In this document: piece by piece, positions 28,781 through 37,443 of the stretch | Numbering within the stretch: the first letter of the stretch is position 1 | How the letters are laid out: every line of letters starts with the position of its first letter | Assembly (NCBI RefSeq): GCF_023746595.1 | Contig: NZ_CP080572.1 | Span: 1,844,530 to 1,908,529 of the forward strand | Length of the DNA: 64,000 bases | Direction of reading: 5' to 3' | DNA from: Thermococcus argininiproducens | GTDB lineage: Archaea; Methanobacteriota_B; Thermococci; Thermococcales; Thermococcaceae | Translations under genes and position numbers: made by a program | Notes under the pieces: model-generated | Databases searched by the model: none | Seen by the model: the letters and a program-made list of their open reading frames with translations, nothing else | Told to the model about the DNA's origin: nothing

Positions 28781-28858
28781 GCGGTGGTAGTCTAGCCTGG
28801 CCTAGGACAGCGGCCTGCCACGCCGCGGGCCCGGGTTCAAATCCCGGCCACCGCACCA
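28781..28858 (+). tRNA. tRNA-Gly (GCC)
   Basis: Acceptor GCGGTGG (28781-28787) pairs with CCACCGC (28848-28854), then A and an encoded CCA. The anticodon arm GCGGC-CTGCCAC-GCCGC gives anticodon GCC. The T arm CCGGG-TTCAAAT-CCCGG is intact. The promoter CGGCGAAAGATTTATAAAG lies at 28733-28750. The accessory island begins right after it, so it may have served as an attachment site. Confidence 0.96.
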
Positions 28859-28918
28859 TTCTAATTTCACGATGATTTGTGGAACTTCCTCACCCAAGAA
28901 GACCCATCTCGCAATTCT

Positions 28919-29355
28919 TCAACAGAATTGTGACTTGTTAATGCCCATCTCGTTCATAACACCGACCAATTCTTCTTCCGGTGTGGTGACTTTATAACCT
29001 TTGGTTATTAAATATTCATAAACTTTTGTACGCTCTCCAAGTATGTCTCTAAGTTTGTAAACTTGAACAACAATCAATTCAACAATATCACCTGAAGATA
29101 ACTCTGACTCGTTTCTAACTTCTCCAGGGATTGTAATTAAACCCTTAGAACTAAGTTTCACTACAATATAGGTCTTTTTAGTGTGTTTATTTTATTGTCG
29201 ACGACTTCAAATGATCCTACAATAACTTCAAGCAAGTCTCCTTTTTCAAGTTGAATATTTCCCGATTCTTAGCAGGGACGACTAATTGGCCCTTAACGTT
29301 TATACTTGTTATGAAATTTTACTATAGGCTCAATGACATCTTGTTCTTTTGTCAT
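28919..29355 (-). pseudogene. Decayed AbrB/SpoVT-type gene (paralog of 30842-31282)
   Basis: The minus strand from ATG 29355 reads MTKEQDVIEPIVKFHNKY before a stop; the alignment to the intact AbrB gene (MTTKNTESQVIEPLAKFH) then continues in other frames: INVKGQLVVPAKNREIFNLKK, GDLLEVIVGSFEVV, and finally VVKLSSKGLITIPGEVRNESELSSGDIVELIVVQ with LRDILGERTKVYEYLITKGY. At least three frame changes are needed. The ATG overlaps the stop of the MCM-like gene (ATGA), so it was once coupled to it. Only the last 80 codons remain open. Confidence 0.78.
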
Positions 29356-30116
29356 TTTTGTCCCTCCGTTTTGGTTTGTTTGGTTACGTGGTTGACTTCT
29401 AGGAGTTTTTCAAAGGTGATTGGAGATCTTTTTTCTTTTGATACTAGACGTAGGATTCCGGTTACTATTATCTTATCCTCGGTGGATACTGTATCTACTA
29501 AATCGTCCAACAGAATCGCTTTTATTTTTGTTCTCTTATCTGAGGGATCACGTATCCAAATTTGTTGGATGTCTAAAAATTGGCTTTCATTAGTGTCAAT
29601 TTCGATTTCTTTACCCCCACAAGCTTCACATTTCTTTGGTTTTATTGCATTGCCAAACGGTTTTTGAATTCTAATCATTATGTTGCCACAGTCTTTGCAC
29701 ACAAAGGCTATTCTTGGAGCGAATATATCTATTCTTCCTGTTTTTGCAACGATTCCCTCAACTTGGACGAATTTATTTCTATGTTTAATCCCAAGTTCTT
29801 TGACGGAATATGTTTTGAGTAGCTCATAAAAGCGGGCATGAATTTTTGGAGAGTTTTTCTTAAAGAATTCTTCTTGGATGACTATTTGAATGGCATCTTC
29901 AGCAGCCAAAATAACATCCTCTGGATTTTCAAGAAGTTCTTCAGCGAGCTCTGGATTAAATGCATTTAAATGTTCCCAATTTATTTCCATTGAATGTTTT
30001 GGAGAAGTAGTCAAGATCTTTGTCAGTTGATTAAGGTAAATTAGGTTCTCGTTTTCATCCAAGTATTCTTTGAAAAACTGGACAAATTTGTCTATTATTT
30101 CTTCTTGCCTACTCAT
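29352..30116 (-). CDS. Stand-alone MCM N-terminal domain protein (no AAA+ domain)
   Basis: A 254-residue protein matching only the N-terminal half of archaeal MCM helicase: subdomain A (INWEHLNAFNPELAEELLENPEDVI, IHARFYELLKT), the KFVQVEGIVAKTG OB strands, a zinc finger with CKDC and CEAC, and the end LDDLVDTVSTEDKIIVTGIL..LEVNHV, where a full MCM would enter the AAA+ core. It stops there. No ATPase remnant follows. The ribosome site GGAGG is 10 bases upstream. It could cap or poison host MCM hexamers, load onto an element origin, or be a truncated relic. Confidence 0.85.
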   Translation of the reverse strand: MSRQEEIIDKFVQFFKEYLDENENLIYLNQLTKILTTSPKHSMEINWEHLNAFNPELAEELLENPEDVILAAEDAIQIVIQEEFFKKNSPKIHARFYELLKTYSVKELGIKHRNKFVQVEGIVAKTGRIDIFAPRIAFVCKDCGNIMIRIQKPFGNAIKPKKCEACGGKEIEIDTNESQFLDIQQIWIRDPSDKRTKIKAILLDDLVDTVSTEDKIIVTGILRLVSKEKRSPITFEKLLEVNHVTKQTKTEGQK

Positions 30117-30198
30117 GCCTTGATGCCTCCTAGTGGCATATAACCAAATTCTGTTATAATCTATATAATATATATGCCTTACGAAAAATTGTTCGACA

Positions 30199-30327
30199 TT
30201 GGGCGCTTTTGAGTGGCAAAAGTTTAATATTTTTTCAAGTAAGAGATTATTTAAACTTGCTCGAGGATATGGAAAGAGGATTTTAACTAATCAAGTTAAG
30301 CCGGGAAGGTATAAGGTGAGGAGGTGA
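30199..30327 (+). CDS. Possible small basic protein
   Basis: An open frame from TTG 30199 to TGA 30325-30327 encodes about 42 residues rich in Lys/Arg (SSKRLFKLARGYGKRILT, then KPGRYKVRR). Its stop lies inside the GGAGGTGAT site of the next gene, suggesting coupling. There is no ribosome site before the TTG; a frame starting ATG 30174 (MPYEKLFDIGRF) would join it by one frameshift. Coding is likely from composition but unproven. Confidence 0.35.
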   Translation: MGAFEWQKFNIFSSKRLFKLARGYGKRILTNQVKPGRYKVRR

Positions 30328-30333
30328 TTTGGG

Positions 30334-30744
30334 ATGGTAGGGTTTGAATTCAGTGGTGATAGGTTTGTTGTGTCCTTGTGGGAGGGAGCTGATAAGGATA
30401 TAATTGACGCTTTAGACAACTTTGTTAAGAAAGCCTTCAAGGAATCGTCACGGGTTTTATATCTTAGGGCAAGAGTTTCGAAAGACAAGGACTTCAAAGA
30501 CGAAGATGATCATCCTATATATGGGTTTTACATAGAGGTGGTTTGCGCGTCTGAGAGGGGATATTCTGGAACAGTTCATATGCCAAAAGACTACATTGAA
30601 CTTGATCCTTTGCTATTTTATGTTGAGGATAATAGAAAACTAGTGGTCTCTCTTGATCGCTCGCCTGATCGACAAGTCGACATGGAGTTGGAATTGCCAG
30701 TTGAGGAGGTTGTTATACACGTTTATAGAAAAATTTCTTATTGA
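30334..30744 (+). CDS. Orphan protein of the island
   Basis: A 136-residue protein I do not recognise. It is acidic and mostly beta (FEFSGDRFVVSLWEG, YGFYIEVVCASERGYSGTVHMP, KLVVSLDRSPDRQVDMELELP), with one helix near residues 22-36. The ribosome site GGAGGTGATTTGGG before ATG 30334 is very strong. It faces the AbrB gene convergently. It has no membrane segment or known catalytic motif. Confidence 0.7.
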   Translation: MVGFEFSGDRFVVSLWEGADKDIIDALDNFVKKAFKESSRVLYLRARVSKDKDFKDEDDHPIYGFYIEVVCASERGYSGTVHMPKDYIELDPLLFYVEDNRKLVVSLDRSPDRQVDMELELPVEEVVIHVYRKISY

Positions 30745-30841
30745 TATTTTTTCTAAACTTCGCCTTTATACATATGGGGTCAACAAGTCTTCATGAGAAA
30801 TTTGTTGACCGGATATCAGATCCAAAAAAATTGAACAATGT

Positions 30842-31282
30842 TTAATTTTCACGTTTAGTAGATGAGGTTATTTGAACATTTGTAGAGAGGATCTCTGCCT
30901 CCTGTGTAGCCGTTAGAATTTCATATTTATTTTTCAACAAGTGCTTAATATTACGGGCCTCTTCGGTGAGGAGGTCGTCAATTTTAAAGTACCTGATTAA
31001 CAATACTTCGAGAATATCATCTTGGATTATGTTGAATTTCTTGACAATTTTTTGGGGAAGATAGATTTTTCCATCTTTTGCCACACGAACAAATACATGT
31101 ACCCGGCTTAAAACAACATTGTCTCTAATAATACGAACTATTAGTTCTACAAAATCGCTTTGCTCTATACTATATCGTTTCCTCGTGATTTTAGGCAAAG
31201 TAAACCTACCATATTTGTCGACTTCAGCGTGAAACTTCGCTAGTGGCTCGATGACTTGTGACTCTGTGTTTTTTGTTGTCAA
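30842..31282 (-). CDS. AbrB/SpoVT-type swapped-hairpin DNA-binding protein, tandem domains
   Basis: A 146-residue protein with two successive AbrB-like units: KYGRFTLPKITRKRYSIEQSDFVELIV (about 20-46) and KDGKIYLPQKIVKKFNIIQDDILEVLLI (about 69-96), each G/R-x-x-LP-x-x-x followed by acid-hydrophobic strands. Such proteins are transition-state or antitoxin-like regulators and are common on archaeal viruses and plasmids. TTG 31282 is the start, after GGAGGGTGGTCGGGC. Its decayed paralog sits at 28919-29355. Confidence 0.78.
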   Translation of the reverse strand: MTTKNTESQVIEPLAKFHAEVDKYGRFTLPKITRKRYSIEQSDFVELIVRIIRDNVVLSRVHVFVRVAKDGKIYLPQKIVKKFNIIQDDILEVLLIRYFKIDDLLTEEARNIKHLLKNKYEILTATQEAEILSTNVQITSSTKREN

Positions 31283-31325
31283 GCCCGACCACCCTCCGGG
31301 TTCACGTGTAATTATTTGAATACGT

Positions 31326-31347
31326 ACTTTTATACAACTTTTATACA
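31326..31347 (-). promoter_or_regulatory. Tandem 11-base repeat with TATA boxes before the AbrB gene
   Basis: The plus-strand unit ACTTTTATACA occurs twice in direct contact; on the minus strand each is TGTATAAAAGT, giving two stacked TATA-like boxes about 45-65 bases before the AbrB start. They may be alternative promoters or half-sites for the AbrB protein. Confidence 0.5.
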
Positions 31348-31473
31348 GATTGTGTTATATCAATGGTATATAGGGTTTGCGGAATTTTTTCCTGCTATGA
31401 AGTTCCAAAAACAGCGGTAATTATATAAAAACCAGTTTGTTAGTTTTGGCTTTGGAAATTTCACTAGAAAGTC

Positions 31474-32064
31474 TCAGATTACTCGTTCTATTTTCTTGGG
31501 AGCTTCTTTGGATTTCAACATTTTATGGATTGGATACCTATGTGTGGATTTGATCTCTGTGAACCAGCGTTCTATTGTTTTTAAGTCTCTTTTGACTAAT
31601 AATATTTCTTCGGGTTTAAACTCTACGGTTATGGGGGCCCCTTTTTGAAGTTCAACTGTAATTGGCGTATCTAAGTGGTAATCTGCAAGGTTACGATACC
31701 ATCTTAGCCTGAAGAGGGCTTCTCGAACTGTTTTTCCAGCGAACTCCCCTATAAATCTCTGTATTACTTGGTGCACGTTATCTTTATGTTTCTTTGGTTG
31801 ATTTGGAAGTGAAGGTGTTAAAAGTTTCTCTAACAAAAGAAGGTCTTGTTTATATTTAATAATCTCTTCAGATTCTTGGTTATTGAGTGCATTTATAACA
31901 TCTTTAACTGCATCAAGGATTTCCTCACGGAGTTTCAGAAAAATATAGTAGTAATATTTGCTAATTGTTGTCCTAATCAGGGCTTCCTCTAAAGTTTGTT
32001 GAGATTTTTGGGAGATAATTTGTTCTAAGTGCTGTGAGAGCTCTTTGAATTTCTCTGGCCCCAT
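31474..32064 (-). CDS. HEPN-domain protein, third gene of a three-gene operon
   Basis: A 196-residue helical protein. The N-terminal LIRTTISKYYYYIFLKLREEIL is the typical first HEPN helix pair (compare xxRxYYAxFxxxR), and LRWYRNLADYHLD carries the R-x5-H motif (RNLADYH) that forms the RNase site of active HEPN toxins. HEPN proteins are common effectors of toxin-antitoxin and phage-defence systems. It is the last gene after two unknown genes reading leftward from 33110. The ATG at 32064 follows GGAGAG. Confidence 0.75.
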   Translation of the reverse strand: MGPEKFKELSQHLEQIISQKSQQTLEEALIRTTISKYYYYIFLKLREEILDAVKDVINALNNQESEEIIKYKQDLLLLEKLLTPSLPNQPKKHKDNVHQVIQRFIGEFAGKTVREALFRLRWYRNLADYHLDTPITVELQKGAPITVEFKPEEILLVKRDLKTIERWFTEIKSTHRYPIHKMLKSKEAPKKIERVI

Positions 32065-32092
32065 TTAAGCTCTCTCCTTTCAATAGCATTGT

Positions 32093-32557
32093 TTAGAAAC
32101 TATACAATATATGAATATCTTTATCAGGATACTTTGAGAGAATGTTGTCTTCTAATTTCTCGAATGCCCTCACTGCCTCATCTATTTTCTTTCGGTTTAG
32201 GTAAGCTACTACATAGAAGAAATTAGCATTATACTCCTCATCTGGAGCTATAACTACTCGTATCTTAGGGATTGTCCTTTTAATATTTGGTATTTCTTTT
32301 AGAGTCTTCAAAATTCCTTTTACAATGGCTCTAAGTTTCTGTTCACGATTCGGAATCTCTAATTGATATATAGATTCGTGAAGTGATTTTTCATAGTAAG
32401 CTTTAAGTTCATTCAAAATGTAATCTAGTTCAGCTTCTGCTTGTTCTTCCCTAATTAATTCTATGGGCACATGATAAGAGAGATCACGAGAAAATCTTTT
32501 TTCAAAGGGAAAATAGAATCCTCTACTCCTCTTTTTTATTTCCTTCGTTGGCATCAT
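32093..32557 (-). CDS. Unknown protein, middle gene of the HEPN operon
   Basis: A 154-residue protein I do not recognise. It starts basic (KKRSRGFYFPFEKRFSRDL), has a central helical block (LDYILNELKAYYEKSL) and ends with an alpha/beta unit, KIRVVIAPDEEYNANFFYVVAYLNRKKIDEAVRAFEKLEDNILSK, whose last strand is DIHILYSF. The gene starts inside the previous one (about 35 bases overlap) and ends 28 bases before the HEPN gene, so it is translationally linked. It could be an antitoxin or adaptor. Confidence 0.65.
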   Translation of the reverse strand: MMPTKEIKKRSRGFYFPFEKRFSRDLSYHVPIELIREEQAEAELDYILNELKAYYEKSLHESIYQLEIPNREQKLRAIVKGILKTLKEIPNIKRTIPKIRVVIAPDEEYNANFFYVVAYLNRKKIDEAVRAFEKLEDNILSKYPDKDIHILYSF

Positions 32558-33110
32558 TATTGATCACCGAGTTTATTTCTTTAATAATTTTTTGTAAGGT
32601 CTCTTTTGTAGTTTCAAAGAAGAACTCTTCAAAATCCATATCTCCTGAGTTATCTATTGATATTCTAACCCCATAACTTTCAAGAGGACCTTCAGGGGTA
32701 TCTTTGACAAACTTTAATATTTCAAACTCTTCCAGGATAGGATTTGTCATGAATTTCCTTGTAAGAAACTTCTTTTTTGTCTCTGGAGTGTACAATTTTT
32801 CGACAATATATTGCTCCAATTCACTAGAGGGTTCTTCTCCTTCTATTTTTGAGAGAAGAACCACCGAGATTAAGAAAGAAGCAATACTCAAATAATCGAC
32901 TGCTTGTACAATATCAATACCGAACTCCTTAACTAGATCCATTTCTGCTATTGTTTTTATTCTAACTTCAATACCACTCCGATATACTCCTATATTCTCT
33001 GGAGTAATTAATTCCTTTTCAATGAGATACTTAACAATCCTCTCAAAAAGTTCTTTATCAAACTTTCCAGATCTAAATTTTATTTTTTCAACTAAACTCT
33101 CATAAGGCAT
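32523..33110 (-). CDS. Unknown protein, first gene of the HEPN operon
   Basis: About 195 residues, not recognised. The first 45 residues look like a winged or HTH-like helical head (YESLVEKIKFRSGKFDKELFERIVKYLIEKELIT), followed by a short hydrophobic stretch (YLSIASFLISVVLLSK, possibly buried rather than membrane) and an acidic C-terminal half with FGIDIV and SYGVRISIDNSGDMDFEEFFFE. The tail is very polar. ATG 33110 follows GGTGAGG. It overlaps the next gene by about 35 bases. Confidence 0.65.
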   Translation of the reverse strand: MPYESLVEKIKFRSGKFDKELFERIVKYLIEKELITPENIGVYRSGIEVRIKTIAEMDLVKEFGIDIVQAVDYLSIASFLISVVLLSKIEGEEPSSELEQYIVEKLYTPETKKKFLTRKFMTNPILEEFEILKFVKDTPEGPLESYGVRISIDNSGDMDFEEFFFETTKETLQKIIKEINSVINNDANEGNKKEE

Positions 33111-33405
33111 TTGCCTCACCTGTAAATGTTAACAATAATTGCGACACCTAAGATACGATATGCTTTTTGATTAACTCCCTTAAATAGGTTACGTATGTAT
33201 GAACATCTCGTTCGTTTGGCACTCTCTCATGTGAGGTATTCTCACAGTAAGATTTTTTCACTTTAATTTCTTTTAACATTTCTGTGTCGATTCAGATTTT
33301 GTAAAAGAGTTCTATTATGTTGATATAGGAAAAGTTTCTACCCCAATAATAATTACATACATAAATTATTTAAATAATAAATTCGTATTTCAAGTGGTGA
33401 TATAA

Positions 33406-33429
33406 ATGCTATTCAAGGAGGCTGAATAA
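33406..33429 (+). CDS. Possible leader mini-ORF before the SDH_sah protease
   Basis: ATG CTA TTC AAG GAG GCT GAA TAA encodes MLFKEAE. It has its own GGTGAT site and its stop overlaps the protease ATG (TAATG), while the AAGGAGG site of the protease lies inside it. This arrangement could couple or attenuate translation. It may also be chance. Confidence 0.35.
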   Translation: MLFKEAE

Positions 33430-34568
33430 TGTCTCGAGAAAATAGAGTTAAACTGATTGAGAAAATTGAGAAATTAAGAAATTCGAGAGTGATTGTCTAT
33501 GTTACTGGAGATAGAAAAAATTACCCTCCATTAAGCCAGATTTCAGATGATGTCTTACCATTATTTAAGGAGATTCTTGATGAAATTGGATGGACCAAAA
33601 GAATTGATTTGTTTCTGTATAGTCGGGGTGGAGCTACAGAAGTCCCTTGGAAGATAGTATCTCTGATAAGAGAATATTGTGACCATTTTGGCGTCTTAAT
33701 TCCGTTCAGAGCACATAGTGCTGCAACTATGATTGCATTAGGTGCGGATGAAATTGTATGCGGGCCAGCAGCGGAGCTTGGCCCAATTGATCCGTCCTTA
33801 ACTACTCCGTTTAACCCAAGAGACCCTCGGGGCAATCCTATACCAATAAGTGTTGAGGCTGTAAGAGCTTACCTTGACTTTGCTTCTGAATATGAGTCAC
33901 AAAAACAGCCTCAAAAGGCTTTTGAGTTGCTATCTAATGTTGCAAATCCTCTGGCAATTGGAGAAGTATATAGACAGCATAACTATATAAGAATGGTCGC
34001 AATGAAATTATTGAAGTTAAATAAGAACTCTCCAGATGATGCCACTTGTGAAAATATTGTCAAAAAGCTTGTGGAGGAAACATATTTTCATGGTCATGCT
34101 ATTAAAAAAGAAGAAGCAAAAGAAATTGGCTTAAATATTATAGATGCCGATCCAGAATTAGAAAAAGTTATGTGGGAATTACTAAAGGAATACAGTAGAG
34201 AAATGGCATTAAATGAGCCATTTGAACCGTTAAAACTCTTAAGGACTAACAATTTTCAAGAAGTAGAAGATGAGAATGTATGTGGATTGTTAGAGAGCTC
34301 TACAATAAGCTATGTGAACATTGCTAAGGTTTTGGTCCAGTCAATAAGACAAATGCCCCCATCAATTTCACTTAACATTCCTCTGGTGTTGCCACCGAAT
34401 ATTGCTGAAATTATAGAAACAAATCCGGACTTGAGAGATATTATTAATGAATTGTATCAAAACTTAGTTGCAAGAATCCAACAACAAGTAATTCAAGAGC
34501 TAAACAGACAAGCCCCTGTAGTAGATGTTGACCTTAAAAGAATAGAAGTCAAGTGGATTAAGTTATAA
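33429..34568 (+). CDS. ClpP-fold serine protease of the SDH_sah type
   Basis: A 379-residue protein of the SppA/ClpP-like SDH_sah family. RIDLFLYSRGGATEVPW gives the oxyanion SxGG loop (about residues 57-75), and FRAHSAATMIALGADEIVCG holds the candidate nucleophile Ser (about 97), followed by ELGPIDPSLT. The N-terminal membrane anchor of many relatives is absent, so it should be cytoplasmic. A C-terminal half of about 170 residues is extra and unrecognised. Family members occur in mobile and defence islands. The start has AAGGAGG and overlaps the leader ORF. Confidence 0.8.
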   Translation: MSRENRVKLIEKIEKLRNSRVIVYVTGDRKNYPPLSQISDDVLPLFKEILDEIGWTKRIDLFLYSRGGATEVPWKIVSLIREYCDHFGVLIPFRAHSAATMIALGADEIVCGPAAELGPIDPSLTTPFNPRDPRGNPIPISVEAVRAYLDFASEYESQKQPQKAFELLSNVANPLAIGEVYRQHNYIRMVAMKLLKLNKNSPDDATCENIVKKLVEETYFHGHAIKKEEAKEIGLNIIDADPELEKVMWELLKEYSREMALNEPFEPLKLLRTNNFQEVEDENVCGLLESSTISYVNIAKVLVQSIRQMPPSISLNIPLVLPPNIAEIIETNPDLRDIINELYQNLVARIQQQVIQELNRQAPVVDVDLKRIEVKWIKL

Positions 34569-34571
34569 AAA

Positions 34572-34748
34572 TTATTGGTGGATAACAACTTGGGTTGTGG
34601 GCTCAAGAGATACCTCAATTGGGGGATTTAAACACACTCTCGGCTCGTTAATGGATTTTGGTTTGCTTTTTGGAGTTTTCTCGGAAAACTTATACTCAAA
34701 TCTAAATTCATTCCATGGCAAGAAATTAAGCTTGATTTCGATTTTCAT
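34572..34748 (-). CDS. Small orphan protein
   Basis: A 58-residue protein starting MKIEIKLNFLPWNEFRFEY, with a Lys/Pro-rich middle (KTPKSKPKSINEP) and end VSLEPTTQVVIHQ. GGGGTGATAAAT precedes the ATG at 34748 and a TATA-like ATATTTATATTAAC lies about 40 bases upstream, so it is likely expressed. It converges on the protease gene with a three-base gap. It resembles nothing I can name. Confidence 0.55.
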   Translation of the reverse strand: MKIEIKLNFLPWNEFRFEYKFSEKTPKSKPKSINEPRVCLNPPIEVSLEPTTQVVIHQ

Positions 34749-34928
34749 ATTTATCACCCCTAATATTATTTTGGAGTTTAAAGTTAATATAAATATTGCC
34801 TCTAGTAGATACATAACTTCAGATGAATTTTGGCGTCTGTGTATAAAACGATTTTGTTGTCTGCATTTCCAGCAGTGTAGCGAAAGTTTCTTATATGATT
34901 AATGTATATCCACTGATGGGAGAGAGTA

Positions 34929-35432
34929 ATGGAGGAGGCTAGATTTAAGAGGCTTGTCGCTTTTTTAAAGGCTCTTGAAAAGAAGACAGGATATAAATTT
35001 ACTATTGAGACTTTTGAAGATAGGATGAGACTCCAAAAACTTGTTTATCTCGCTAAGCACTTTGGCATTGATTTGGAATATAACTTCACTCTTTACATTA
35101 GAGGGCCTTATTCATCAGAACTTGCAGATGATTACTACAAGATAGAACGGGACTATGATGGTGAGATTCCAGAAATTTTAGACGAGTTTATTACAGAGGA
35201 GAAAGTAGATACTTTCATAGAATTCGTGAAAGACAAAGACACAGAAGAACTTGAATTAATAGCAACACTTCTAATGGTGTTAGGAAGACACAAGCCCTTC
35301 CTTAACTCTTTACCTGAAGAAGAAAGAGAGGATTTGGTGGTAAAAACCATTCAGGATATCAAACCATACTTTACTAAAGACAAAATATTAGAAGCGATTA
35401 GAGAGATTGAGAAGGTTAAGATTGTTGGATAA
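34929..35432 (+). CDS. YwgA/DUF4065 (SocA/Panacea)-like protein
   Basis: A 167-residue protein. RMRLQKLVYLAKHFGIDLEYNFTLYIRGPYSSELADDYYKI matches the hallmark of the YwgA and DUF4065 (Panacea) families: LQKLvYL..., then Y..Y..GPYS.EL..D. Panacea domains act as antitoxins or chaperone-like modules in toxin-antitoxin pairs. The remainder is helical and acidic. The 3' end overlaps the convergent PIN gene by 17 bases. The ribosome site GGGAGAG is modest. Confidence 0.72.
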   Translation: MEEARFKRLVAFLKALEKKTGYKFTIETFEDRMRLQKLVYLAKHFGIDLEYNFTLYIRGPYSSELADDYYKIERDYDGEIPEILDEFITEEKVDTFIEFVKDKDTEELELIATLLMVLGRHKPFLNSLPEEEREDLVVKTIQDIKPYFTKDKILEAIREIEKVKIVG

Positions 35433-36090
35433 TGCTATCAATAACTTTGAGAGGTTTTCTTCCAATTTTTTCACAGAGTCTTTGGACAGTTGGATTTCCC
35501 ACCATAATCGTGTCTGTTGTGAGAAGATAATCGGCTTCATCAGCAATGGCATGAGCCAAAATTAATACATCCGTTGAGGTTAGGTAAGTACCATCGTGAA
35601 AGTTATAGGATATATCATCTACTTCGTCTATTTTTTCAAAACATATCTCTTTGTTTTTAACATATGGATTGTTTAAACACATGAGAATTCTAGCAATTCT
35701 ATAAGCCTCCGGAGGTACTGGAGGTAATTCTGCATTCAGGTTTTTAATTAAAGTATAAAATTGTCCTAGAATTATCTCTCTTTTCTCGTCTAAAGAAAGG
35801 TTAGAAGTTAATATACCTTTATTCCGACTTTCCCATCCTTTAAGTTCGTTCTCGTTCTTTCGGTATAATATAGAAGAGAATTCTCCAACAACAACTTGAG
35901 AAATTTTAACAATATATGTTTCGGAATAATTAGTAAGGGCTTTGATATTATTTTTGGCAGTTATATAGGTGTCGGATTCCTCCTTATCTAAGAGATACCC
36001 ACATATCATTTCAGTATCTAAATAAACAACTTGACGGCCTGTATGTGTGTTTTTTTGATTGTTTTTCTTTTTACGGCCTCTCCTTGCCAT
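35416..36090 (-). CDS. PIN-domain protein
   Basis: A 224-residue protein with a basic head (ARRGRKKKNNQKN). PIN motifs: VVYLDTEMICGYLL (first Asp), VVVGEFSSIL (Glu), STDVLILAHAIADEADYLLTTDTIM (the Asp pair and final D). PIN proteins are metal-dependent RNases, often VapC-like toxins, but this one is about 80 residues longer than VapC. The start has GGAGGTATGTC before the ATG. Its partner may be the overlapping YwgA-like gene; an upstream antitoxin is not seen. Confidence 0.78.
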   Translation of the reverse strand: MARRGRKKKNNQKNTHTGRQVVYLDTEMICGYLLDKEESDTYITAKNNIKALTNYSETYIVKISQVVVGEFSSILYRKNENELKGWESRNKGILTSNLSLDEKREIILGQFYTLIKNLNAELPPVPPEAYRIARILMCLNNPYVKNKEICFEKIDEVDDISYNFHDGTYLTSTDVLILAHAIADEADYLLTTDTIMVGNPTVQRLCEKIGRKPLKVIDSIIQQS

Positions 36091-36473
36091 GACATACCTC
36101 CAAATACTTATAACTGAATCTCAGGTACATATAGCTTACTCTGGTAGCGATTACCAACATGACAAATAATTGTAGTAAAAACTGTCAAAATAATAATGAA
36201 GCAGAAAAATAAGCTAAATATTTTGTCTAGAAAGCCTGCGAGTTAAGAAAAGAATTGTGAAAAACATCTACTTCTCACAAGTATAGGATGGGCCGGGAGG
36301 CCCTTGGCAGTGGCTAAATGGAAACAGTTCATGGAATGTACACAAGTGGGAATTTTTAAGCTTTATGCTGGTAAAAAGTCAATATTTTTGGATTAGAAAG
36401 GGAACTTATGGTTAATTCGGAAATAAGAGAAGGTTTAAATAGTTATTTTTTGCAAAAATACTGAGGGATGGTT
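36091..36473. other. Gene-free interval before the first DUF257 gene
   Basis: About 380 AT-rich bases with no supported ORF. It holds one GC-rich patch around 36288-36314 (GGATGGGCCGGGAGGCCCTTGG, containing GGGCC/GGCCC) and a TATA-like GGTTTAAATAG at about 36432-36442, which should drive the DUF257 gene. I see no RNA gene I can support. Confidence 0.5.
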
Positions 36474-37100
36474 ATGTGGGAGGTATTTACTAAGTTAAAT
36501 CCCGGAGAAGTGGTTTTAGTTGAGTATTCCTCCAAAGTAAACCCGTTACCCGTTTTTGCAGAAATAATAAAGTGGGCTAATGCCAGAGGATACCAAATCC
36601 TGATTACGGATCTTCTTAATAGACTCGAATTGTGCTTAAGGTACATGAAAATTGGGAAAAGTGAATGTAAGGCGCTGGAGAAAGCAAAGGTTGTTGAGAT
36701 TGGTTATCGTGAACCTCCCGAGGTAAATGTGGTGAAGTTCATCAACGGAGATAGGGAATTGCCAGCATTACTTTCAGAATACAAGAAAGTCTACGAGAAG
36801 CTAGTAAGTGAAAAGTTTACTGTTGCGTTCTTGTTGGGGGTTGAGAGGTACGTTATTTTAAGAAGAAATGATGCAATCAAACTTGTCAGTATTCTTGGAG
36901 CTTTTGTGGGAGACACTCGCAGAATAGCATTTTATTTTGTAAATAAGGACATATTGGAGGGTATTATTCCAAATCCATTAACTATGCTTGAGGAGCTTGC
37001 TACAACAATAATAGAGCTCGAAAAAGAGAGGGGGAGGATAAGACTTTGTATTACCAAAGCACTTAATCCTGAGCTTGACGGCCAAGAAATTGTAATCTAA
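36474..37100 (+). CDS. DUF257 family protein, copy 1
   Basis: A 208-residue member of DUF257, a family confined to Thermococcales as far as I know, with a RecA/KaiC-like core lacking a clear Walker A. It begins MWEVFTKLNPGEVVLVEYSSKVNPLPVF and has AFVGDTRRIAFYFVNKDIL near residue 145 and RIRLCITKALNPELDGQEIVI at the end. I start at ATG 36474, after GAGGGATGGTT. The paralog at 37444 shares all these blocks. Function unknown. Confidence 0.82.
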   Translation: MWEVFTKLNPGEVVLVEYSSKVNPLPVFAEIIKWANARGYQILITDLLNRLELCLRYMKIGKSECKALEKAKVVEIGYREPPEVNVVKFINGDRELPALLSEYKKVYEKLVSEKFTVAFLLGVERYVILRRNDAIKLVSILGAFVGDTRRIAFYFVNKDILEGIIPNPLTMLEELATTIIELEKERGRIRLCITKALNPELDGQEIVI

Positions 37101-37443
37101 CTTATCTTGAATCCTTTTACTATTCTTCTTTTAGACATTAAAAGCAAAATATTGGTTAATGGTGCAGTTACCCTTGCTACAATACTTATGGTTGTTTCTC
37201 TGGAGCCCAATAATTACTGACCTTTTCCCTGCTCTGACATGCGAGGCTTTTTATGGCATAATAACATTCAAAAGCATGAGGCTTTATTCCTCAATAACTT
37301 ACAAATTTTCAAAAATTTTCGGATTTTTTGTAGTTTTTCTCATGTTTTTACATAAATATTAGAGATTTTACAATATCCAGCAGTAGATATTCATAAAATA
37401 TTTAAGGAATTAATTATTAAATAAAGTCATAATGGTGAGTCAT
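37101..37443. other. Gene-free interval between the DUF257 paralogs
   Basis: About 340 AT-rich bases. The only plus-strand ORF (37159-37362) lacks a ribosome site and coding character. A TATA-like AATATTTAAGG about 40 bases before the second DUF257 gene is the likely promoter. Confidence 0.45.

Follow-up and report, generated by a model that had tools for sequence, protein, structure and literature searches.

The operon described here lies within a 64,000-nucleotide stretch of the genome of the heat-loving archaeon Thermococcus argininiproducens (contig NZ_CP080572.1, positions 1,844,530 to 1,908,529; hereafter the window), and encodes a HEPN-family protein together with two small partners, A and B. 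Our preferred explanation, to which we give about an even chance of being right, is that the operon is a mobile-element-borne toxin or defence cassette of three proteins, in which the HEPN protein is the effector, B neutralises it, and the COMMD-like protein A acts as a scaffold or gate. Such a cassette would probably serve defence or addiction in a self-limiting way, as a module of a hitherto undescribed kind. The three co-directional genes occupy 31474-33110, with the coordinates, order and 35-base overlap already given in the initial annotation:

32523..33110, minus strand: gene A, 195 amino acids from the ATG at 33110 (an alternative upstream GTG at 33119 would give 198 amino acids)
32093..32557, minus strand: gene B, 154 amino acids, overlapping A by 35 bases
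31474..32064, minus strand: HEPN gene, 196 amino acids, following B after a gap of 28 bases

A second full trio is present in another Thermococcales genome (G024), with identities of 72% for A, 52% for B, and 51% for HEPN. Between the two, third codon positions are the most divergent in all three genes, and A has a nonsynonymous divergence (dN) of 0.16 with synonymous divergence (dS) saturated. When the island that carries the operon was resampled 200 times under a Markov model, the longest open reading frame measured 95 amino acids in the median and 192 at most, and one reading frame of such length is not decisive by itself. The three-gene arrangement is not due to chance, because G024, five further Thermococcales genomes, and one Methanocaldococcaceae genome have the genes in this order too. 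The overlap of A and B suggests co-translation only; the fixed stoichiometry proposed in the initial annotation is a guess.

Recurrence was followed by profile searches and by reading of neighbourhoods, with 94 Thermococcales genomes searched. Beyond G024, trios were found in G017, G018, G035, G076, and G081, which brings the total to six Thermococcales genomes besides that of the window, and in locus L089 of Methanocaldococcaceae all three genes are present, COMMD-like A included, with A overlapping B in a similar way. The three genes thus travel together elsewhere with order and overlap conserved, as the initial annotation of a three-gene system would have it. Outside the Thermococcales, the HEPN gene is present in 14 of 36 genomes in a sample of the Methanocaldococcus phylum. 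A match to the B profile stands directly upstream of HEPN, on the same strand, in 32 of the 33 loci examined; the single exception is a HEPN gene split in two, and none of the 33 loci has a full-length HEPN without a B match. Since B is upstream in nearly all loci and A in only some, the core is the B-HEPN pair, with A a frequent third member. The position of gene A is taken by a DUF3467 protein in G085, G089, G077, and one Methanocaldococcaceae locus (L097, DUF3467-B-HEPN), and by a helical open reading frame in G016. In G084, DUF3467-B is kept and HEPN is absent, and a partner surviving without HEPN fits the pairing of a harmless partner with a harmful effector. No homologues were found in IMG/VR or in phage and plasmid collections.

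The assignment of the 196-amino-acid protein to the HEPN family is borne out by matches of several kinds. It matches the PADLOC model HEPN_IX (PDLC02923, E 5.6e-7), as do all nine family members tested, and one homologue lies above the Pfam cut-off for HEPN (PF05168). A profile of 13 members retrieves the HEPN protein of Retron-Kva2 (36ht_I, E 3.7e-4) and two other HEPN structures; from its name and the Kva2 match, we read HEPN_IX as the effector model of type IX retrons. Polyubiquitin matches of the same profile were rejected as spurious, being short-motif repeats of RTLSDYN.

Eight residues are invariant in all 30 HEPN homologues: F6, R31, Y38, Y39, H98, R124, D128, and Y129. The initial annotation had taken RNLADYH (residues 124-130) as the R-x5-H RNase motif, and this holds for the arginine but not for the histidine: position 130 is H in only 3 of 30 homologues and mostly N, D or E, and H98 is invariant instead. 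The canonical R-x4-6-H motif is therefore not conserved in this family. That motif is typical of HEPN proteins rather than obligatory, as members of the HEPN-T family with a replaced histidine have been accepted; in the HEPN-T family of AF0298, the arginine is retained, the histidine of the motif is lost, and a second conserved histidine lies upstream (PMC3710099). Defence by retron-Kva2 depends on Y40-42, H64, and R122 and is accompanied by degradation of tRNA (PMC13405049). The residues of most interest are encoded as follows:

31948..31953, minus strand: HEPN Y38-Y39, invariant, aligned with the Kva2 Y40-42 stretch (PMC13405049)
31771..31773, minus strand: HEPN H98, candidate catalytic histidine, comparable with the alternative histidine of HEPN-T (PMC3710099)
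31693..31695, minus strand: HEPN R124, invariant, aligned with Kva2 R122
31678..31683, minus strand: HEPN D128-Y129, invariant, forming an R-x3-DY motif

Judged from its residues, the protein has the HEPN-T layout, its histidine being the alternative one, and stands close to the HEPN of type IX retrons; it is predicted to be a HEPN-T-like RNase effector.

Both partners had been noted as unknown; structure prediction (AlphaFold2, Foldseek) now gives A a COMMD-like fold and B a small fold of alpha helices with a ββαβ part. The model of A, made with six sequences, has a confidence score (pLDDT) of 82.3 and comprises six helices, three strands, and a last alpha helix, plus a small extra hairpin. 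A six-helix N-terminal domain followed by a βββα COMM domain is the COMMD layout (PMC10187114), and the predicted model of A shows this same succession of a six-helix HN domain and a βββα COMM domain. A Foldseek search of the PDB gave 17 matches with E≤0.001, and every one is a human or bacterial COMMD protein, aligned along the full length (best E 4.6e-6). Whole-chain template modelling (TM) scores against COMMDs are low, at 0.3-0.4, which we read as an effect of differing domain orientation; the COMM domain alone reaches a TM-score of 0.70 normalised by target, with a root-mean-square deviation of 2.9. No match to A with E≤0.001 was found in a viral structure library. As of 2023, COMMD homologues were known in neither Bacteria nor Archaea (PMC10187114), and the bacterial COMMD-like structure MBK5214510 (9q6a) has been in the PDB only from 2025. 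A CARF ring-nuclease effector with a Rossmann-type CARF domain was also considered for A and rejected: the PADLOC match is weak (E 0.0036), and the model is helical plus βββα, with COMMD matches only.

DUF3467 (PF11950) or DUF3467-like proteins were observed at the position of gene A in L023:1678-1986, L056:7140-7478, L040:8160-8579, L057:6334-6639, and L097:6033-6332. Their sequences have a βββα-like pattern and may represent a COMM-like domain that lacks the helical part. The hhalign match of A to DUF3467 brings their last strands and helices into register and is not significant (P 0.02-0.04).

The model of B consists of a helical hairpin and a C-terminal ββαβ domain. Its mean pLDDT is 66, with the C-terminal part mostly at 75-90; the helices and the ββαβ domain are fair. 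Its best fold matches are to CDF C-terminal domains (E 0.01, weak), and one homologue shows a faint echo of this in sequence (ZT_dimer, E 0.006). B forms a new family whose core is weakly like the ββαβ fold of CDF C-terminal domains.

We propose that the HEPN protein would act as an RNase effector in the form of a dimer and would use Y38-Y39, H98, and R124, and that B, made from the adjacent cistron, would be its obligatory neutralising partner and keep it inactive. Protein A may oligomerise through its COMM-like domain and scaffold or gate the B-HEPN complex, or may act as a sensor. Infection, or loss of the element, would then release HEPN, which would cut RNA, perhaps tRNA, and stop growth. 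This proposal draws on the HEPN family, the invariant Y-Y, H, and R-x3-DY residues, the constant position of B, the HEPN-less locus of G084, and the COMMD-like model of A. It draws further on the Kva2 counterparts of the tyrosines and arginine, which are needed for defence in a system that degrades tRNA (PMC13405049), and on genomic settings (described below) that include restriction-modification, helicase/type IIG, and Cas3 or RAMP genes, as well as a tRNA-Gly island. Family and context together support a putative role as toxin or defence. What the analysis shows is the order and recurrence of the genes, the family and conserved residues of HEPN, the predicted folds, and neighbourhoods of defence type; that HEPN cuts RNA, that B neutralises it, that A oligomerises, and what triggers the system are inferred.

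Several observations weigh against the three-protein cassette. The pairs of Methanocaldococcaceae mostly stand without A, so A cannot be essential in every member. In G051 (L039:7952-8942), HEPN is intact, B is shortened at its N terminus, and A is missing; full neutralisation may be unneeded, or the HEPN of G051 may be mild. Confidence in the model of B is low over its N-terminal third. For A, there is no sequence-level match to COMM domains, and the conserved tryptophan of the last COMMD helix is absent, with no tryptophan at all in the seven A proteins, for which reasons we call it COMMD-like and not COMMD. Lastly, the catalytic H64 of Kva2 does not align with H98, which makes H98 an analogue and not a proven equivalent.

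The main rival is a plain two-component toxin-antitoxin system, a minority possibility in our judgement, in which B neutralises HEPN by direct binding and the pair stabilises the integrated element, with A an autoregulatory or chaperone-like accessory and no sensing of infection. The B-HEPN pair alone is indeed the widespread form in Methanocaldococcaceae, the trios of the window and G024 lie within decayed mobile elements, and the upstream partner is variable (COMMD-like, DUF3467, or other). However, A is better conserved between the window and G024 than B or HEPN and is present in both orders, which argues that it is not a dispensable passenger, and pairs and trios recur beside restriction-modification, helicase, and CRISPR genes. 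A bolder proposal, which we advance only tentatively, is a hitherto undescribed archaeal module, immune or abortive in function, with a COMMD-like ring that holds the HEPN RNase through B as adaptor; this would give the COMMD fold a prokaryotic functional setting, and the module would be a candidate origin of the Commander ring of eukaryotes.

It seems improbable that the HEPN protein is no toxin at all and instead joins A and B in a larger complex, as a subunit that binds RNA or has a structural part without catalysing anything. Lack of catalysis has been suggested for some HEPN domains (PMC3710099), and the canonical motif is absent in most members here; yet Y38, Y39, H98, R124, D128, and Y129 are invariant in an active-site-like set, and a HEPN protein with aligned tyrosine and arginine residues is an active tRNase (PMC13405049). 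Very unlikely, in our view, is a diverged HEPN-MNT (type VII) module with B as a degenerate nucleotidyltransferase. B does occupy the usual position of the MNT gene, its ββαβ core is loosely MNT-like, and PF05168 HEPNs are usually paired with MNTs (PMC3710099). Against this, none of 22 B proteins has the nucleotidyltransferase motif, although the same pattern detects a true MNT in L094, no Pol-beta fold is among the top 50 structural matches of B, and PADLOC, Pfam, and NCBIfam give no MNT match for it; the initial annotation was thus right to doubt that the partners are MNT nucleotidyltransferases. We give least credence to a type IX retron remnant or relative that has lost its reverse transcriptase. 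The Retron-Kva2 HEPN is the closest among solved structures, and the protein belongs to the HEPN_IX family by its PADLOC match; however, RVT_1 has no match anywhere in this genome (msDNA was not searched separately), and no reverse transcriptase was seen in the neighbourhoods read. Lacking a reverse transcriptase in the genome, the trio is not a retron, and its conservation as such in two orders shows that it is not a recent remnant.

The trio of the window sits in an accessory island, as had been proposed, and sister species lack this island at the corresponding site: in G079 and G084 the two flanks are a short distance apart and no island gene lies between them, with ~0.65 kb separating the flanking protein genes in G079. 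The island starts at the last base of a tRNA gene; no att duplication of the tRNA end was found, and no integrase gene was recognised in the island. The features concerned are:

28859..37287 (no strand): accessory island of 8.4 kb carrying the trio, GC 35.2% against 38-40% in the flanks
28781..28858, plus strand: tRNA-Gly(GCC), with the island's left edge at its 3' end
30842..31282, minus strand: AbrB-like gene downstream of HEPN (NCBIfam AbrB, E 8e-4, sub-threshold)

An AbrB-like gene also lies downstream of the G024 trio (L017:8884-9267) and is common in these elements, and its product is probably not part of the core. The island further contains a 254-amino-acid protein with MCM N-terminal and OB domains only and no AAA+ helicase part (29352-30116). 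Divergent from the trio is a ClpP-fold, SDH-type protease-like protein (33429-34568) that matches phrog_11747 (E 1.8e-43, unknown function). A YwgA-like protein (34929-35432) matches part of the DarG models (PADLOC E 3e-7), and a PIN gene (35416-36090) lies on the opposite strand with overlapping 3' ends; the two are possibly another toxin-antitoxin pair. The ClpP-like, PIN, and YwgA-like neighbours are outside the recurring cassette.

In other genomes, a PLD-SNF2 helicase adjoins the trio in G017, G018, G035, G076, and G081, as well as the trio remnant in G051. A type IIG-like restriction-methyltransferase was identified in G051, with similar large proteins in the others, and an AbiE pair lies in between in G017 and G051. 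Among Methanocaldococcaceae, a B-HEPN pair is inserted between HsdS and HsdR of a type I restriction-modification operon (L094:3141-8794), and pairs also lie near Cas3 (L060) and near RAMP genes (L061). As a separate observation, the Thermococcales island beside the trio is itself recurrent, with the PLD-SNF2 helicase, the type IIG-like enzyme, and a protein of 244-248 amino acids without a Pfam match (L020:5125-11311, L039:1529-16001), and may be an undescribed defence system resembling restriction-modification.

If our explanation is true, an archaeal COMMD-like/HEPN operon gives the COMMD fold a testable prokaryotic function, and HEPN toxins gain a new type of partner beside the nucleotidyltransferases, ATPases, and retron proteins with which they otherwise occur. 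The conservation of HEPN residues also corrects the choice of residues for mutation. We found no relevant literature joining COMMD and HEPN, and unindexed papers or preprints may exist.

Among known systems, HEPN-MNT (MntA-HepT, type VII) likewise has a small partner gene directly upstream of the HEPN gene, but the partner in the window is no nucleotidyltransferase by motif or fold, and a third gene is present. The HEPN-T protein of AF0298 (2hsb, PF05168) shares the retained arginine, the replaced motif histidine, and a second conserved histidine on the N-terminal side (PMC3710099), and differs in its operon partners. COMMD proteins of the Commander/CCC complex and MBK5214510 share the six-helix and βββα COMM domains with A, whereas A is operonic with HEPN and departs from them in sequence and in the conserved tryptophan. 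PrrC and other HEPN RNases of restriction-modification operons resemble the present family in lying in or beside such loci (type I in L094; type IIG islands beside trios), but here B and A stand in place of an ABC-ATPase. Retron-Kva2 has a related HEPN, in which Y40-42 corresponds to the YYYY stretch around Y38-39, and R122 and D126-Y127 align with R124 and D128-Y129; it too has no canonical R-x4-6-H motif. Its catalytic H64 lies elsewhere in the sequence, and its partners are a reverse transcriptase and a winged-helix protein rather than a COMMD-like A and B. In that system, a multiprotein complex restrains the HEPN dimer (PMC13405049), and by analogy this may serve as a model for A-B-HEPN.
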